Source of the DNA: Rhodospirillaceae bacterium
GTDB lineage: Bacteria; Pseudomonadota; Alphaproteobacteria; Azospirillales; Azospirillaceae
Direction of reading: 5' to 3'
Assembly (NCBI GenBank): GCA_029267445.1
Contig: JAJUIU010000003.1
Coordinates: 1 to 64,000 of the forward strand
Length of the DNA: 64,000 bases
Shown: piece by piece, positions 8,352 through 22,315 of the stretch
Position numbering within the stretch: the stretch's first letter is position 1
How the letters are laid out: every line of letters starts with the position of its first letter
Position numbers and translations under genes: made by a program
The notes under the pieces: generated by a model
Seen by the model: the letters and a program-made list of their open reading frames with translations, nothing else
Told to the model about the DNA's origin: nothing
Database searches by the model: none

Positions 8352-9224
8352 ATGCATTCCTCCAAGGGGCTGAAGGCGATCGAGCAGCGCACCCTGAAGA
8401 GCTTGGACCAGCTCCATGGAAACCTGGCCGCGATCGAGCGGCGGTGTGCCGCGGTCAAGCCCCCGCGGACCGTGGGCGAGGCGATGGTCGAGTTCAAGCG
8501 CGTCTGGCCGGTGTTCGAGGAGGGCCTGTCCTTCCTCGCCGTCATCGAAACGAACATGCATTCGCTGGAGGAGCAGCGGCAGCGCGAGGTGGAGGTCCAG
8601 CTCGTCACCCTGCGCCGGTATCTGTCGCGCCTGCACTTGACGACGGTCGATCCCCTTCTCCGCCTCGTCGCCGACAGCAAGGAGCCGCTCGCCCTGGGGA
8701 CGCGGCACGTGATGGAACGCTGGATGGCCTATCTCGACCAGGTCGAAGGGCAGCTTTCAGGCGGCAAGGGTGCCAGCCTGTCCGAAGCCGAGCACCACCT
8801 GATGGAGCATATCCGCGGTCTGGCGCATCTCATCCTCGATCGAGCGCCCGATCTGCCGGAGTTCAGCACGCGGGAACCCGCCCAGACCGTGGAAGCCCTT
8901 CCGGCCGCGACGGCACGCCGGCTGGCGCCGATGCGTGACCAGGGAGTGGCGGGCGTTCCGAACATCGTGCGGCTCGCCGTGAAGATCCAGGGCCTGCGCG
9001 CCTACATCGACCCGACCCTGTCCGCCGGTCTGGCCGCCGAGGTGCGCCGCCTCGGCCTGACGGTCGGACTTGCCGGGGCGATGGGTATCCAGCCCAGCAA
9101 TGTGGTCATGGTGTTGAACGGCAAGGACCCCTTCTCCACCGATCACCTGCAGGCCACCTCCGACTTCCTGCGCAAGAACCTTGGGGAATCACGGTTCGAA
9201 CTGATCGAGGCGGGCGCTCTCTAG
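8352..9224 (+). CDS. Helical hypothetical protein located inside the iteron region
   Basis: 290 aa, not recognised; predicted to be almost entirely helical with several Leu/Glu/Arg-rich segments and no signal peptide or membrane segment. It contains a stretch LRRYLSRLHLTTVDP followed by RLVADS that resembles LERYQRKLSRVCRATIDP and RIVADG in the 476-aa protein at 15326-16756, both preceded by a [KR]PPR motif. ATG at 8352 chosen; a TTG at 8310 in frame is the alternative, and neither has a strong ribosome binding site. The gene sits between iteron copies 1 and 2 and upstream of repA in the same direction, so a role in replicon maintenance is possible but unproven. Confidence 0.7.
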   Translation: MHSSKGLKAIEQRTLKSLDQLHGNLAAIERRCAAVKPPRTVGEAMVEFKRVWPVFEEGLSFLAVIETNMHSLEEQRQREVEVQLVTLRRYLSRLHLTTVDPLLRLVADSKEPLALGTRHVMERWMAYLDQVEGQLSGGKGASLSEAEHHLMEHIRGLAHLILDRAPDLPEFSTREPAQTVEALPAATARRLAPMRDQGVAGVPNIVRLAVKIQGLRAYIDPTLSAGLAAEVRRLGLTVGLAGAMGIQPSNVVMVLNGKDPFSTDHLQATSDFLRKNLGESRFELIEAGAL

Positions 9225-9947: not shown

Positions 9948-10850
9948 ATGAGCAGAAACCTCGAAGAGGCGCATCAGCTGTCACTCCTGGACAGCCCGCT
10001 GATCGGGAGCGTCAAGAACGAGCGCTCCGTCATGGTCTACAACTTCTTCGCCCTCACGAAGGAGAAGCGGATGGACCCCATCCGCTACAACGACGGGCGG
10101 GTGAACATCGAGGTCAAGGGCACCGACGCGGGCATCGCCACGATCTACGACAAGGAATTCCTGATCTACATCGCCTCGCTGATGGTGGACAAAATGAACC
10201 GGGGGGAGAGCGTCAGCCCCGTGTTCAGCTTCTCCGGCCATGACTTCTTCCGGGTTTGCCGGGTGTCCGCCGGCGGCAAGTCCTACGACCGCATCTCCGG
10301 CGCGCTGGAACGGCTCCAGGGTACGCAGATCAAGACGAACATCGAAACGGGCGGCGAAGGCACCGACGAGTGGTTCAGCTGGCTGAAGTCCGCCAAGGCC
10401 GAGTACCGCAAGAACGCCAAGGGCGAGAAGGTCCTGAAGCGGATCACGGTGGAGCTGTGCGACTGGCTCTACCGGGCGATCCTGAAGGACAACCGGATGC
10501 TGACCTACGATCCGGCCTATTTCGACCTGCCGCCGCTCGAGAAGCGGCTGTACGAGATGGCCCGTGCCCATTGCGGCAATCAGCCCGGCTTCAAGATCAA
10601 CATGGAGAAGCTGCGGCTCCGCGTCGGTGCTGAGACCGATCTCAGGCAGTTCCGCTACAAGCTCGCCAAGATCGCCGAGAAGAAGAACCCATTGCCTGAG
10701 TACGGGTTCAAGCTGGTCAACGACCCCAACAGCGATGGTGTCGGCAATCGGGGCCAGCGCACGCAGCTGAAGAAGATCATCGTCGTGTTCTGGCGGCTGG
10801 ACCGCTGGCGCGAATACGATGTGGCCCGTTTCGCCACGCTCGAGGACTGA
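9948..10850 (+). CDS. repA: Plasmid replication initiator protein (RPA / RepA family)
   Basis: 300 aa. Matches the alphaproteobacterial replication initiator protein A family: NERSVMVYNFFALTK near the N-terminus, PIRYNDGRVNIEVKG, ATIYDKEFLIYIASL, SYDRISGALERLQGTQIKTNI (read as two adjacent motifs) and a winged-helix-like C-terminal half containing LPPLEKRLYEMARAHCG. The family binds origin iterons and recruits the replisome. ATG at 9948 is preceded by GGAAGGGTGAC, a good ribosome binding site; the frame extends further upstream through iteron DNA without coding character. Iterons lie directly upstream and probably autoregulate it. Three bases separate its stop from the convergent DUF3445 gene. 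Confidence 0.88.
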   Translation: MSRNLEEAHQLSLLDSPLIGSVKNERSVMVYNFFALTKEKRMDPIRYNDGRVNIEVKGTDAGIATIYDKEFLIYIASLMVDKMNRGESVSPVFSFSGHDFFRVCRVSAGGKSYDRISGALERLQGTQIKTNIETGGEGTDEWFSWLKSAKAEYRKNAKGEKVLKRITVELCDWLYRAILKDNRMLTYDPAYFDLPPLEKRLYEMARAHCGNQPGFKINMEKLRLRVGAETDLRQFRYKLAKIAEKKNPLPEYGFKLVNDPNSDGVGNRGQRTQLKKIIVVFWRLDRWREYDVARFATLED

Positions 10851-14201: not shown

Positions 14202-15329
14202 GTGTCGACTGCCGTTCCGACAACCCATCTGGGGATCATCCAGGGCCGCCCCTCCACCTTCGCCGAGCGTGGCGTCTGCGTCCCGTTCACCACGCCGATC
14301 CTGGCGCAGGCGCGCATCGGCATGGACAGGTACGAGCAGCTGGAATGCCTGCTGCCGGGGTTTTCGGGTGGAAAGGGCACATATGTCTTCTCCTGGAAGA
14401 CCGTGCCCGAGGTCATCAAGATCACCCTGCATGACCGCGCCCTGCACAAGGAGATCCTGGAAGTCGGCGCCAACAGCCCGGACACCATCCGGACCTGTGC
14501 GCTGACCATCGCTGCGCGCGGTTTCGCAGGCCTCGCGGCGGCCCATCAGGCAAAACAGGCGCTGGCGCTCGACCAGCAGTATGTGGTCCTGACCAATTAC
14601 GTCTTCGTGCTCGAGCTGCTGAAGCTCGTCGGCGTCAGCACGCCGGACCTGTTGAAGACCGGCCTCGGCACGGAGGAGGCGCGGCAGACCGCCAAGAACG
14701 CGCTGAACCAGGTGGCCGAGAACTTCCGGATCGCGCCGGACGTCCTCTATGGCAGGGTGGAGGAACTCAGCCTCCAGCTTGCGCCCGTGGGCCTGCCGCA
14801 GGCGCCACGGCCGGGTCGCCTGCGCAGCCTGGTGGATCGTCTCCGCACCTTCGAGAAGTCGGTCCTGGACTGGGGGGCGGTGGAGACCACGGAAGCTTCG
14901 GGTCTCGCGAGCTTCATCGCGGACTGCGCGCAGCAGACGGTCGGCCTTGCGGAAACCAAGCTGTCGCGACTGGACAAGCTCCTGAAGAAGACCCGCGACG
15001 TCGTCGTCGGCAACAACAAGGTCTCGGCCGAGGTCGACAGCACGGTGACCGCCCTCTCCTGGCTGCTGGACGGGTGGGAATACATCTGCCAGCTCTGGGA
15101 GGACAGCCGCGACCAGTCCGAGGACATGCAGCGCATCGCCATCTGCGAGGTGTTCCGGATCGCGCCGGTCATCCCGTCGGAGGAGCTGGCCGCGAACGAG
15201 ACCTTCGATATGGAGGATATGAAGCGGGTGCAGCGTCGCTGGGTCCGGGGCAATCAGGACTGGCGGACGGGTGGCATGGACTACGACGCGGTCCGCCGCA
15301 TCGAGCAGCTGAAGGCGAAGGTGGCATGA
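14202..15329 (+). CDS. Unknown operon protein A (375 aa, soluble, helical)
   Basis: 375 aa, not recognised. GTG start chosen because AGGGGACAAGG sits at correct spacing before it; an ATG at 14070 in the same frame has no such site and an uncharacteristic peptide follows. The N-terminal 110 residues look alpha/beta (THLGIIQGRPSTF, TYVFSWKTVPEVIKITLHD); the rest is mostly helical with amphipathic Lys/Leu repeats (KLSRLDKLLKKTRDVVVG). No signal peptide or membrane segment. First gene of a chain coupled by ATGA or TGATG overlaps, so it is probably made in fixed ratio with the following proteins. Confidence 0.75.
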   Translation: MSTAVPTTHLGIIQGRPSTFAERGVCVPFTTPILAQARIGMDRYEQLECLLPGFSGGKGTYVFSWKTVPEVIKITLHDRALHKEILEVGANSPDTIRTCALTIAARGFAGLAAAHQAKQALALDQQYVVLTNYVFVLELLKLVGVSTPDLLKTGLGTEEARQTAKNALNQVAENFRIAPDVLYGRVEELSLQLAPVGLPQAPRPGRLRSLVDRLRTFEKSVLDWGAVETTEASGLASFIADCAQQTVGLAETKLSRLDKLLKKTRDVVVGNNKVSAEVDSTVTALSWLLDGWEYICQLWEDSRDQSEDMQRIAICEVFRIAPVIPSEELAANETFDMEDMKRVQRRWVRGNQDWRTGGMDYDAVRRIEQLKAKVA

Positions 15330-16756
15330 AGACACCCAGCCGCGAATGGACCCAGCTGGCGGCCAGCGCGGCCGCGCTCACGGACTCCAAGTTCCTGAAG
15401 ATCGTGGAGCTGTTCGAGCGCATCCGCCATGAGCCCGGCATCGCCGAAGCCATGGGCATGTTCCGCCCCCGGCTGGTCGAGCTGCGGCCACCGCGCCGCA
15501 TCACGGCGTCGCGCCTGTTCTTCCTGCCCGTCGAAGACCTGCTCGACGACCTCGAGCGTTATCAGCGCAAGCTGTCGCGGGTCTGCCGCGCCACCATCGA
15601 CCCATGCTGGCGGATCGTCGCAGACGGCTTCGGCGAAAAGCGGCTGGCCAAGCTGGAGCGGACGCTGCTGGAAACCGACAGTCATGATGTGTCCGCCATT
15701 GTCCGGCTGGGGGAGCCGCTCTGGAAGGAGGGCTCCCGGGCTCTGGGGAAGGCGCTGGACGAGGCGGAGACGAACCAGAAGGCCCGCATCGCCCTGTTCG
15801 GCCGCGACGACGACGTGCTGCGCCAGGTCGCCGTCACGGTGGCCGTCACCGATATCGGCGCCTTCCTGCAGGAGGTGAAGTCCAAGCTGCCGGACCGGCC
15901 GATCCAGACCCTGGCGGAGTTCCACGTCGAGGTGTTGCGCTCGGCCATCAAGGAGCTGGCCCAGGACGACATCCGCAGGGTGACCCCGTTCCTGCTGGTC
16001 CTGTCGGCGCGCATGCTGCGCCCCGGCGACCTGCTGGCCGTTCTGGGCGACACCCGGCTTGACGGCTATCAGCAGGAGAAGGACGAGATGGCCCGCGAGG
16101 TGGGCGTCTTCGCGCTGGAGAACCTGCTGCGCCAGTCGGGCGACATGTCGAAGGCGATGGGGGAAGGTGCCGCCGCCAAGGAGATCGCCAGCATCGCCGA
16201 GCGTCTGCTCGACGGGTTCGATTCTATGAAGACCACGCTGCAGCGGCCCGACCAGAAGGCGATGGTCAAGCGCGTGGATCGCGCCCGTGCGGTCATCTCC
16301 GACGCCCTGCTGGAGCGGGTGATCAATCCCGCCGACCAGGAACTGCTGGGCCATGTCAACCGGCTGGCCGATTCCAACCTGCTGCGGATGGGCCTGGACG
16401 AGCCGACCTTCCCCACGCCGGAGGAGATCGGCAAGGCGGAGGAGTTCGCGCGCGCCTATCGCCGGTGCGCGCGCATCGCGCCGCTGGTCGGGCTCAAATC
16501 GGAGGTGCAGGAGAAGACCGCCGACATATGCAGGACCGTGCGCAAGGTTTCCGAGAACCTGGGGAATGTGGCGCGGCCGGCCCGTGGACCCGTGCGGGTC
16601 GACCCGGCGGTCGCCGACGAGCAGTTCGTCTCCATGCTGCGCCTGATCGAGATCATCGCCGGCCCCGACGAGGCCGAGACCCTGCTGACCGACTGGCACG
16701 AGCGGATCGGCGATCTCCCCAAGCCGCCCCCCTTGAACCCGTGGGGCGACGACTGA
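15326..16756 (+). CDS. Unknown operon protein B (476 aa, soluble, helical)
   Basis: 476 aa, not recognised, starts at the ATG overlapping the stop of protein A (ATGA). Nearly all helical with repeated acidic/basic heptad-like stretches and a Pro-rich end. Residues about 50-95 contain RPPRRI, then LERYQRKLSRVCRATIDP and RIVADG, resembling the 290-aa protein at 8352-9224. That shared module implies the two loci use a common partner or fold. The longer frame that starts at 15074 overlaps protein A and is not credible. Cytoplasmic by sequence; function unknown. Confidence 0.75.
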   Translation: MKTPSREWTQLAASAAALTDSKFLKIVELFERIRHEPGIAEAMGMFRPRLVELRPPRRITASRLFFLPVEDLLDDLERYQRKLSRVCRATIDPCWRIVADGFGEKRLAKLERTLLETDSHDVSAIVRLGEPLWKEGSRALGKALDEAETNQKARIALFGRDDDVLRQVAVTVAVTDIGAFLQEVKSKLPDRPIQTLAEFHVEVLRSAIKELAQDDIRRVTPFLLVLSARMLRPGDLLAVLGDTRLDGYQQEKDEMAREVGVFALENLLRQSGDMSKAMGEGAAAKEIASIAERLLDGFDSMKTTLQRPDQKAMVKRVDRARAVISDALLERVINPADQELLGHVNRLADSNLLRMGLDEPTFPTPEEIGKAEEFARAYRRCARIAPLVGLKSEVQEKTADICRTVRKVSENLGNVARPARGPVRVDPAVADEQFVSMLRLIEIIAGPDEAETLLTDWHERIGDLPKPPPLNPWGDD

Positions 16757-17133
16757 TGAAGGAGATGCGGACCCTCGGCTTCGACGAGCGCGAGGCCATC
16801 ATGGCCATCCTCGACCTGATGCGGAAGCAGCGGCAGAAGCTGCCCCCGGGTCAGATCGTCGGGCTGCAGATCCACAGCTCCCCCATCAGCGCCGACCTCG
16901 TGGTCGAGGACGACCATGGCGAGCGGATCACGATCCACAAGAACGCGACCGAACTTGCGGCGTCGCTGGTCAACTACTGCATCGAACGGCGGATCAAGCT
17001 CCCGACGGGTGGCCGGAAGTTCGTCGAGGTGATCGCCGGCGGCCTCAATCTCATCATTTTCTTGGAAGAGGCGCCAAAATCTGAGAAGCGTACCACGCGC
17101 GCGCCACGGCGCGTTGCCGCCTTCCAGGATTGA
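16756..17133 (+). CDS. Unknown operon protein C (125 aa, small alpha/beta)
   Basis: 125 aa, not recognised. One base overlap with protein B (TGATG). The order helix (FDEREAIMAILDLMRKQRQK), strand (IVGLQIHSS), strand pair (SADLVVEDD, ERITIHKN), helix (ATELAASLVNYCIERR), strands (FVEVIAGGLNLIIFLE) suggests a compact domain; the tail is basic. No catalytic signature visible. Its place between soluble and membrane-anchored members suggests an adaptor, an inference from gene order alone. Confidence 0.7.
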   Translation: MKEMRTLGFDEREAIMAILDLMRKQRQKLPPGQIVGLQIHSSPISADLVVEDDHGERITIHKNATELAASLVNYCIERRIKLPTGGRKFVEVIAGGLNLIIFLEEAPKSEKRTTRAPRRVAAFQD

Positions 17134-17141
17134 GGTCGGGT

Positions 17142-17696
17142 GTGGAGCTCACCAACGAACTTGCCTTTTCGGCGACAACGCTGCTGGCCGCGATCGGGCT
17201 GTTCGCGGTCGCGATCTGGATGAACGCGTCCGCCAACACTCACACGGTCCGCAAAACATTGAAGATCAAGAAGCTGACCCGGCAGCTGGAGGCGGACTGC
17301 GAGGAGCTGATGAACCGGTTGAACGAGCTTCAGCCGGACTCCCGCAAGCTGGAGGCGGAGGAGAAGGCGCTGGGCACGGAGAACACCCAGCTTCGGAAAT
17401 CCTGCGCCGCCGCCATGCTGGACACTTTCGACATCGTCCATGAGATCGGCACGCCGGCCGGCGGCGCCACCTGCTATGAGGTCGAGATCCTGCTCAGCCC
17501 CGCCGCGATGCAGGAAGGACCGGCGGCGGCGCAGAACGACCCGCGCATCTGGGCCCTGCGCAACATCGCGCACATCTGGTCGACCTCTCCATACGAGGCG
17601 CTCCAGGCGGCCGGGCGGGCGTTTCCGGCGCGCTACGGCTTCGTCGTTACGAAGTTCCTGAATGCCCAGATGCCGACGGAGCTGTCGGAACCATGA
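17142..17696 (+). CDS. Unknown operon protein D (membrane-anchored coiled coil)
   Basis: 184 aa from a GTG preceded by TTGAGGTCGGG. One N-terminal membrane segment (about residues 8-27, ATTLLAAIGLFAVAIWM), a coiled coil (about 38-85, rich in Leu/Glu/Lys), then a small alpha/beta domain: YEVEILLSP, a helix, and SPYEALQAAGRAFPARYGF near the end. The final segment matches protein E in pattern (S-x2-[ED]A-x3-A-x3-F-x4-G-[FY]), so D and E are probably divergent paralogues. The gene ends with ATGA overlap into E. Confidence 0.72.
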   Translation: MELTNELAFSATTLLAAIGLFAVAIWMNASANTHTVRKTLKIKKLTRQLEADCEELMNRLNELQPDSRKLEAEEKALGTENTQLRKSCAAAMLDTFDIVHEIGTPAGGATCYEVEILLSPAAMQEGPAAAQNDPRIWALRNIAHIWSTSPYEALQAAGRAFPARYGFVVTKFLNAQMPTELSEP

Positions 17697-18211
17697 CCGA
17701 ACTCCTCCTTTTCGGCATCTCGCTGGCGATCATCTATGCCGCCGCCAAGCGGATGATTCAGGCGAACCGCACCTATCAGCGGTCGGTCAAGGAGATCGAA
17801 CTGCTTGCCGCCATCCCGGTCGAGCTCGCCAAGAACAAGAAGAACCTGGAGAAGAAGGTCGCCGAGCAGATCGACCTGATCGGTCGTTCCAAGGCCCGCA
17901 TCGAACAGCTCAAGGGCGAGAAGGTCCAGCTGGACGAGGAACTTAAGAAACTGAAGGCCCGTCCGAAGGACAATCTGTACGTCATGGAACGGGTCATGCA
18001 GCCCGGCCAGACCCTGTGGGAAGTCATCATCTCCAACGACAGCTATTTCCGCGACGTGCCGAACGAGGAGTTCAGAACGTCATGGGCCCATGGCCGGAAG
18101 TTCGTCGTGTCCGCCCCCAGCGAACGGGATGCCCGCCGCCGGGCGGAGCTGAAGTTCCTCAGCAACCAGGGCTATCGGATCCTGCAGATCCAGAAATCGG
18201 GACGTTTCTAG
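17693..18211 (+). CDS. Unknown operon protein E (membrane-anchored coiled coil)
   Basis: 172 aa. N-terminal membrane segment (about 3-19), then a long Lys/Glu/Leu coiled coil (about 28-90) and a C-terminal domain with NLYVMERVMQPGQTLWEV, FVVSAPSERDARRRAELKF and QGYRILQIQ. Start fixed by ATGA overlap with D. The same architecture as D and a similar closing motif suggest a D-E heteromer with the coiled coils on the same side of the membrane. The coiled coil carries many lysines next to the membrane, which would favour a cytoplasmic position. Confidence 0.72.
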   Translation: MTELLLFGISLAIIYAAAKRMIQANRTYQRSVKEIELLAAIPVELAKNKKNLEKKVAEQIDLIGRSKARIEQLKGEKVQLDEELKKLKARPKDNLYVMERVMQPGQTLWEVIISNDSYFRDVPNEEFRTSWAHGRKFVVSAPSERDARRRAELKFLSNQGYRILQIQKSGRF

Positions 18212-18239
18212 AACGCCAGGGACGGGCCGGGGGTAGCCC

Positions 18240-18413
18240 ATGGTGCTGAAGGGCCTGATCGCCGTCGTGGTGCTCTATCTCGCCCTGCTCGGCCGCAGCG
18301 CCTGGAAACAGGGCGAGTTCGCCCAGTTCGTCCGGTCGTTGGCGCTCGTCACGGCGCTTCTCGGCGCCATCGTCGCCTTCGTCGCGGTGTTCATCTGGAT
18401 CGACAGGGGGTGA
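18240..18413 (+). CDS. Unknown operon protein F (57-aa membrane protein)
   Basis: 57 aa with two hydrophobic segments (LKGLIAVVVLYLALLG and ALVTALLGAIVAFVAVFIW) separated by a short basic loop, so a small two-pass membrane protein. ATG at 18240 is preceded by GGGGG at good spacing, 28 bases after protein E. Too short for most gene callers. It ends 9 bp before the convergent epimerase and appears to be the last gene of the operon; it could be a membrane partner for D and E. Confidence 0.6.
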   Translation: MVLKGLIAVVVLYLALLGRSAWKQGEFAQFVRSLALVTALLGAIVAFVAVFIWIDRG

Positions 18414-20327: not shown

Positions 20328-21071
20328 TCAGGCGCCTTCGGCGCCGACGCTCCGGAGCGCGGCCACGAAGGGGCCGGTATGCTCCAAAGAGAACAATGGC
20401 GAGGCCTTCGTCCATCCCTGCTCCGCCTCCTGGCGCATCCGGCGCAGCATGGCCATCGCATCGTCCCGCTTCTGGTCGGCACGGCCTCTTGGCAGCCAGG
20501 ACAGGAAGTTGTCCAGACGGTAGGCGGACAGGCCGGCCTCCCGTCCGAGCCGGAGGATGCGGGCGTAAGTGCGCTCCTTGTAGTTGAGGCCCTTTGCGAC
20601 CTCCTCCAGACCCCGCCGCGCCGGCTCGTCCAGGATGCCGGCGGCGTGGGCGTCCGACAGGGTTCGCCGGATGTTAACCATCGCTTCGGTCAGGATGGGA
20701 AAGCCGATCTCGGCCGGACCGTGTGTGACCGCCACCTCGTCGTCGTCCTCGAGGCGGCCGTCCATGTACGCCTCGAAGATCGCGCCCACGCCTTCCATGC
20801 CGAAGGCGTGCAGTTCGGCCGCCCGCAAGGCGCCCATGCTACCGCTTCCGAAGACGCGCACGCCTTCCGACATGGCGAAGAGGATTTCCTTGTGCCAGAC
20901 CGACGGCACATTCTCGAAGTAACCGTCGATGATGCCGATTGCCGCCGGCTTCGAAGCCAAGGCCCGAAGCACATCGCCCTGGGCGACCGGCGGCCGGTAA
21001 TCGGCGTCGAGCACCTCCTGGGCGTCGGCGATGGCCAGTGTGGGGCCGATGAAGATGATGATCCCGGTCAT
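20328..21071 (-). CDS. tfuA: TfuA-like protein
   Basis: 247 aa. The TfuA core is clear: FIGPTLAIADAQEVLDADYRPP at the start (two adjacent motifs), GIIDGYFENVPSVWHKEI, and GSGSMGALRAAELHAFGM. TfuA proteins partner YcaO enzymes that convert backbone amides to thioamides, TfuA being thought to help deliver sulfur or the peptide. Start at 21071 has GAGGG at good spacing and lies 11 bp after the YcaO stop. A C-terminal helical extension of about 100 residues follows the core. Cytoplasmic. Confidence 0.9.
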   Translation of the reverse strand: MTGIIIFIGPTLAIADAQEVLDADYRPPVAQGDVLRALASKPAAIGIIDGYFENVPSVWHKEILFAMSEGVRVFGSGSMGALRAAELHAFGMEGVGAIFEAYMDGRLEDDDEVAVTHGPAEIGFPILTEAMVNIRRTLSDAHAAGILDEPARRGLEEVAKGLNYKERTYARILRLGREAGLSAYRLDNFLSWLPRGRADQKRDDAMAMLRRMRQEAEQGWTKASPLFSLEHTGPFVAALRSVGAEGA

Positions 21072-21082
21072 GGTCGCCGCCC

Positions 21083-22315
21083 TCACTGACCGATGACGGC
21101 GCGGCCGCGCGCCCCGAGAAGATAATCCGGAGAGCTGTCGACCCCCTCCAGGCCAGGCACGATCACACGGACCACGGGGATGCCCAGCTCCGCCCGCGAC
21201 AGATCGACCACGATCACCTCGTCGAGGCCGACCTTTGCCAACCGACCCAGGATCTCGTCGAGATCGGCCCGAAGCGAACGCCCTCCCCAACTCGGCAGGG
21301 AATTGAAGCCCCGTACCGGTCGGCCATGCCGGATGGTGTCCAGCCAGGACCGCTGTATCTCCGTGTCGAGGGACTGCCGGTAGGCCGAACGCGGCATGTC
21401 GTCCCTGGCGCCCGCGATGTGGGTCAGCCGGCTCTGCGCCGCCTCGGTCAAGGCGCGGGACAGCGCGACCTCCTTCATGAGGTGGGTGCCGCAACCGGTT
21501 GCCGGTCGGATGGTTGCGACATGGTCGCCGGTGGACTGCACGATCCGGCACAGGAATGTGGGCAGACCCACATCGGAGGTCACGTCCCACACGCCGACTT
21601 CGACGCCAGCCCTCCCGAACCGCGCGATCAGGTCGCGGCAGACCGGATCGGACACGGTTTCGAGATCGACGCGGGTGTCCTCCTGTGCGGCTGCGCCGCG
21701 CAGATGCCACAGGGTCAGGGCGTCGCGCTCGATCACCTCGCAGAGGCCATGGACGATCGCCTCCAGTGGATGGTTGCCGGAGGCGAGGCCGTTGGACGAC
21801 GCCTGGAAGCAGCCGGACCCCGGCGCCATCTGCGCCGTGTAGTTCGTGTGTACCATTTCGTAGGGCACCCACACGCCGCGATCCCTGGTCAGGCTGCGGC
21901 CTTCGACCCAGAGGAGCTGCTTGAAGGGCGTGTAGGAGCTGTCGGCCAGACGCGGCAGCCGATCCGCGTCGACCATCACATGGGAGTAGCAGAGGTCTTC
22001 GAACGATCCCAGCTTCAGCGGAAGCGTGATCCGTTCCGCGTGCCAGCCCTCGATGGATTCCATGAGGGCGGACGCCTTGGCGGCGGCCAGCGTCAGACCC
22101 TTGCCCTGGGAAACCGCCAGTGAACGGGAATTCGGCCGCACGGCCATCACGACCGGGATGCCGATCGTATCGAGGCCGGTGACGTTGGCGACACGGGTGA
22201 TTCCGAACATCGGAAGCAAGGGCGACAGCCGCGCGATCGTCGCTTCGGCCGGCACCATCCGCCGCCAGCGGTCGGACTGCAGGGTCTGGAAAAGGGTCTC
22301 GCCGAGCATCGCCAT
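21083..22315 (-). CDS. ycaO: YcaO-domain cyclodehydratase/thioamidation enzyme
   Basis: 410 aa. YcaO ATP-binding residues are recognisable in ALMESIEGWHAE, GLCEVIERDALTLWH and ALTEAAQSRLTHIAGARDD. The C-terminus lacks the PxPxP ending of azoline-forming YcaOs, as in TfuA-associated members. It should use ATP to activate a peptide amide; with TfuA the product is expected to be a thioamide, or a modification of a housekeeping protein. It lies between a 57-aa ORF (82 bp upstream) and tfuA (11 bp downstream), all in one direction. Confidence 0.92.
   Translation of the reverse strand: MAMLGETLFQTLQSDRWRRMVPAEATIARLSPLLPMFGITRVANVTGLDTIGIPVVMAVRPNSRSLAVSQGKGLTLAAAKASALMESIEGWHAERITLPLKLGSFEDLCYSHVMVDADRLPRLADSSYTPFKQLLWVEGRSLTRDRGVWVPYEMVHTNYTAQMAPGSGCFQASSNGLASGNHPLEAIVHGLCEVIERDALTLWHLRGAAAQEDTRVDLETVSDPVCRDLIARFGRAGVEVGVWDVTSDVGLPTFLCRIVQSTGDHVATIRPATGCGTHLMKEVALSRALTEAAQSRLTHIAGARDDMPRSAYRQSLDTEIQRSWLDTIRHGRPVRGFNSLPSWGGRSLRADLDEILGRLAKVGLDEVIVVDLSRAELGIPVVRVIVPGLEGVDSSPDYLLGARGRAVIGQ

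Follow-up and report, generated by a model that had tools for sequence, protein, structure and literature searches.

Results

Six closely chained genes and their genomic setting

The window analyzed here, a 64,000-nucleotide stretch of a Rhodospirillaceae bacterium genome (contig JAJUIU010000003.1), contains six genes that follow one another with almost no space between them. We asked whether these genes, designated A to F, encode one system or several that have come to share a locus. The genes are as follows.

14202 to 15329, + strand: gene A, 375 aa, GTG start
15326 to 16756, + strand: gene B, 476 aa, 4-base overlap with A
16756 to 17133, + strand: gene C, 125 aa, 1-base overlap with B
17142 to 17696, + strand: gene D, 184 aa, GTG start, 8-base gap after C
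17693 to 18211, + strand: gene E, 172 aa, 4-base overlap with D
18240 to 18413, + strand: gene F, 57 aa, 28-base gap after E

The tight chaining that a sequence-only reading of this DNA had described was confirmed, since all six genes lie on one strand and are separated by overlaps of 1 to 4 bases or by gaps of at most 28 bases. An alternative start for D, a TTG at 17130, would make D overlap C, and the relatives of D favor 17142. Codon usage called all of A to F as genes, and no sigma-70-like promoter and no same-strand terminator-like site was found within the chain. Comparison of A to F with genome G002 and of A to E with genome G027 gave dN below dS in every gene, showing purifying selection, with C to F diverging faster than A and B. 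The pattern of overlaps at the junctions is repeated in both of these genomes, which belong to two other genera.

We searched the six proteins against Pfam and NCBIfam, and none scored above a curated cutoff, in agreement with the earlier statement that no family could be named for any of them. Alignments of the A, B, D, and E families gave no Pfam match above cutoff, one weak match of a D member described below aside, and searches of the six proteins against PHROGs and PADLOC gave nothing convincing. No relevant publication on these families in Azospirillum or Rhodospirillales came up in literature searches. The sequence-only reading had taken the chain for a candidate undescribed system, and none of the products could be placed in a named family. 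The novelty of the locus is that no known family or system can be assigned to A to F, a claim that does not extend to a new mechanism.

The host is of the Azospirillaceae type, as relatives of B among plasmid records were all from Azospirillum and the closest matches were from Aerophototrophica, Niveispirillum, and Nitrospirillum. A KpsF-like SIS-CBS sugar-phosphate isomerase gene flanks the chain upstream, and genes for an epimerase, a Crp-type regulator, TfuA, and YcaO flank it downstream. TfuA (PF07812) adjoins YcaO (PF02624) at window positions 20328 to 22315 on the − strand, and this pairing is familiar from thioamide or azoline modification; the pair is conserved near the C locus in G002, and TfuA is also present at the Indioceanicola locus. 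An RPA-type replication initiator (PF10134) is encoded at 9948 to 10850 (+), and such an initiator also lies beside the corresponding G002 locus (L022) and on the 1.18-Mb Indioceanicola plasmid NZ_CP030127 (L254). Based on these three occurrences, the region may be a chromid or plasmid or may derive from one. Outside the six-gene chain, positions 8352 to 9224 (+) encode a 290-aa protein without any Pfam match.

The locus is a lineage-specific fusion of four modules

The complete set of six genes was found in this genome and one syntenic relative and nowhere else. In Aerophototrophica, A to E are joined at a different locus and F lies elsewhere, and close homologues of C, D, and E stand behind A-B only in G002 and Aerophototrophica. 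The order A-B-C-D-E, with overlapping junctions, is thus present in two unrelated neighborhoods, one in G000 and G002 and the other in Aerophototrophica. A-B, C, and D-E are multicopy, with F as the exception. These results show that four modules (A-B, C, D-E, and F), which are separate in most relatives, have been fused here in a lineage-specific way. The idea that the six genes make up one conserved system was not upheld, because the modules are mostly separate elsewhere: the six are not kept together beyond close relatives, whereas the A-B and D-E pairs are very widely kept. Three related genera account for the joined loci, which may go back to a single fusion event.

F lies beside C in a few genomes, as at the KpsF..TfuA locus of Indioceanicola profundi (G012) and at a second Aerophototrophica locus. 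In Niveispirillum, C adjoins KpsF and F is some 5 to 12 kb away. Because C and F are neighbors in Indioceanicola and C lies by KpsF in Niveispirillum, the window looks like a C-F locus that gained A-B ahead of C and, between C and F, the D-E pair, an order of events that we infer from these arrangements. In one genus, C is near D-E in convergent orientation.

A second line of evidence links A-type proteins to D-E pairs. A family related to A (probability, 92; E value, 8e-7) is present in all 59 sampled Azospirillaceae genomes. In both G002 and G027, a member of this family immediately precedes a D-E pair other than that of the chain, and in G002 it overlaps this pair by 1 base. A three-gene cluster made up of a D-E pair and the gene for an A-related protein of about 318 aa is thus present in two genera (L191:4532-6605 and L258:5243-7353). 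Outside Azospirillaceae, A was present in 3 of the 5 genomes with full-length D-E versus 22 of 285 overall (hypergeometric, 0.0036), a test that involves five genomes and a statistic that ignores phylogeny. D-E pairs and C also occur in five family genomes with no detected B homologue (G003, G004, G014, G032, and G036), which indicates that D-E does not need A-B.

We propose that A to F are a composite operon whose four modules cooperate on the inner membrane, at its cytoplasmic side, and we assign this reading a probability of roughly 0.35. The joining could instead be incidental, with independent modules sharing a transcript for expression needs and forming no single complex. Each module is alone in most genomes, and the Indioceanicola locus holds C-F only, as if A-B and D-E had been inserted later, both as expected of incidental joining. 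However, A-B-C-D-E is kept in two different neighborhoods with its translational overlaps conserved, and a second D-E pair has an A-related gene attached to it. We regard incidental joining as only slightly less probable than the composite operon.

A and B form a conserved pair

A search with A of named genomes, from which 80 loci were fetched, showed that B adjoins A in 75 of the 80. A search with B found it in 57 of 99 relatives. The pair ranges over Azospirillaceae, Thalassobaculum, Minwuia, a Kordiimonadales genome, BAL199, Elioraea, and other Rhodospirillales, and in a class-wide sample 29 of 289 genomes had A and 42 had B. Most A-B pairs stand alone, with unrelated neighbors. These results show that A-B is a conserved gene pair.

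A is a soluble protein predicted to have an N-terminal beta-hairpin part followed by an all-helical body (AlphaFold2 mean pLDDT, 81; pTM, 0.81) and carries the invariant motifs HD(R), P, WLLDGW, and P..P. A profile search against PDB sequences gave no significant match for A, and a fold search found nothing beyond designed helical repeats, with the N-terminal part of A barely covered. An assignment of A to HisG was rejected, since the match reached 16.2 bits versus a curated cutoff of 25.5 in one of 30 family members. B is soluble and probably helical, with a conserved RPRL..LRPPRR.T..RLFF.P.EDLL segment near its N terminus; its profile search against PDB sequences yielded nothing beyond designed or unrelated helical proteins. 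Comparison of the A and B profiles showed no homology between them.

In three other families, solitary B homologues have response regulator and histidine kinase genes as direct or near neighbors (L039:5915-7321, L040:6180-7610, and L041:6549-7961). Such neighbors are consistent with a membrane-proximal signaling or regulatory pathway linked to two-component systems, in which the D and E heads would be sensors or relays for a signal from the cytoplasm or membrane, with A-B as the effector. The expansion of the modules into many paralogues, as is often seen in sensory families, also agrees with this possibility. However, no product contains a known sensory or output domain, and the A-B pairs have no constant two-component neighbor. 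We consider a signaling pathway improbable.

D and E are paired, membrane-anchored coiled-coil proteins

D has one N-terminal membrane helix, a coiled coil, and a small C-terminal head. In the predicted structure of E (mean pLDDT, 84; pTM, 0.45), the membrane helix and coiled coil make up one long helix (residues 2 to 89), followed by a beta-beta-alpha-beta-alpha-beta head. Both proteins therefore have the single N-terminal membrane segment and coiled coil that had been noticed earlier. A profile comparison identified D and E as homologues (hhalign probability, 98.9), and D-like and E-like genes were present in 59 of 59 sampled Azospirillaceae genomes, with nine D-like and eleven E-like matches in this genome. 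Most of the neighborhoods read had D next to E, as a rule with an overlap between the genes, and these sites were scattered and unrelated. Two tandem D/E-type pairs also occur outside Azospirillaceae (L215:5040-7385), apparently near ribosomal uL13 and uS9 genes, as judged from translated starts only.

In all 28 D sequences and in 28 of 29 E sequences, the positive charges (K/R) come after the membrane helix, which predicts that the heads are cytoplasmic, on the inner face of the membrane. The head also occurs as a free-standing soluble protein of 70 to 110 aa in other alphaproteobacteria, consistent with the D/E head being a cytoplasmic domain; free heads and D/E heads together were found in 26 of 289 class genomes. 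The free heads (L202 to L213) have the consensus FEV.VYNQ.VR...G..H..LDD.WAE, are homologous to the D/E head, and are absent from Pfam. A profile search with the free head against PDB sequences gave no match other than designed or unrelated helical proteins.

A membrane-attached complex, as suggested in the sequence-only reading, is plausible; the same reading had also suggested envelope machinery, and the charge pattern disfavors periplasmic parts. A trans-envelope or cell division-like machinery, or a phage spanin-like pair, would place the coiled coils in the periplasm. The short N-terminal membrane helix followed by a coiled coil does recall FtsL, FtsB, ZapB, and the Rz spanins, and there were weak matches of D to FtsL-broad and an Rz-like spanin and of E to ZapB. 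These matches cover the coiled coil and are below cutoff or insignificant: FtsL_broad scored 10.6 bits versus a cutoff of 42.45 for D, ZapB scored 17.4 bits versus 31.5 for E, and the Rz-type spanin phrog_89 gave an E value of only 0.014. We accordingly rejected D as FtsL and E as ZapB. The topology predicted from the K/R charges of 56 of 57 sequences (C-in) is opposite to that of FtsL and FtsB, and unlike FtsL, FtsB, ZapB, and the spanins, D and E exist in many dispersed copies per genome with no family-level sequence match. No obvious lysis or phage gene was seen beside the D-E pairs read (translated starts only), A matched nothing in phage records, and viral contigs held no relatives of A, B, or the free head. 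We consider a periplasmic machinery very unlikely.

The predicted E head weakly resembles several known folds, none of them significantly. Its top PDB fold matches were small linker domains of the CpcD/ApcC phycobilisome type, with E values of 0.018 (8imi_z; probability, 0.99; 3.4 Å over 64 columns) and above. Unlike that linker, D and E are membrane anchored with a long coiled coil, and none of the 57 D/E members matched such a Pfam family at an E value of ≤0.01. The head also aligned with phage T7 Gp2, an RNA polymerase inhibitor (Z score, 6.2; 1.9 Å over 51 residues), and ribosomal protein eL20 (Z score, 6.7; 4.7 Å over 63 residues), with both scores under the Z score of 8 that marks the tool's meaningful level. 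The corresponding RNA_pol_inhib family matched weakly in one of 28 D members (E value, 0.0049). A fold search of E against viral models found small uncharacterized phage proteins, with a best E value of 4e-3.

C and F are small accessory candidates

C is a small soluble protein of a multicopy family present in 57 of 59 family genomes, with seven matches in this genome, and its earlier description as an alpha/beta protein is plausible from its sequence. A two-pass membrane topology is likewise plausible for F, which is predicted to be such a protein and is single copy in 49 of 59 family genomes, with one match marginal. A defense or toxin-like system with F as its membrane effector, suggested by weak matches of F to a PADLOC two-transmembrane effector model (E value, 4e-4) and of E to JetC, is most improbable, since membrane-helix or coiled-coil composition could account for both matches and F, largely single copy, lies in varied places with no recognized defense genes around it. 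We rejected assignment to a PADLOC defense system, for which the weak E and F matches, probably compositional, were the only ones.

Possible working and significance of the locus

If the four modules act together as a composite operon, D and E would form a heteromeric coiled-coil stalk whose heads may dock with soluble A-B complexes or with A-like proteins and so recruit them to the membrane. C would be a small soluble accessory subunit and F a membrane accessory subunit. The many D-E, C, and A-type paralogues could then provide alternative tethers or clients for different sites or conditions. Stated as a general system, this would be an undescribed alphaproteobacterial membrane recruitment platform in which paralogous D-E tethers dock A-B-type complexes, with C and F as adaptors, in genome-specific combinations. 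We hold this broader form to be a tentative and rather doubtful extension.

The families of this locus, unnamed in Pfam and NCBIfam, are kept under selection across a whole bacterial family that includes the plant-associated Azospirillum, some of them at about ten copies per genome. The recombination of their modules is a direct clue to which parts cooperate. If the docking model is true, D-E and its partners would represent a novel type of scaffold at the inner membrane. Should docking prove false, the recurrence of A-B in several orders would still make this pair an obvious target.
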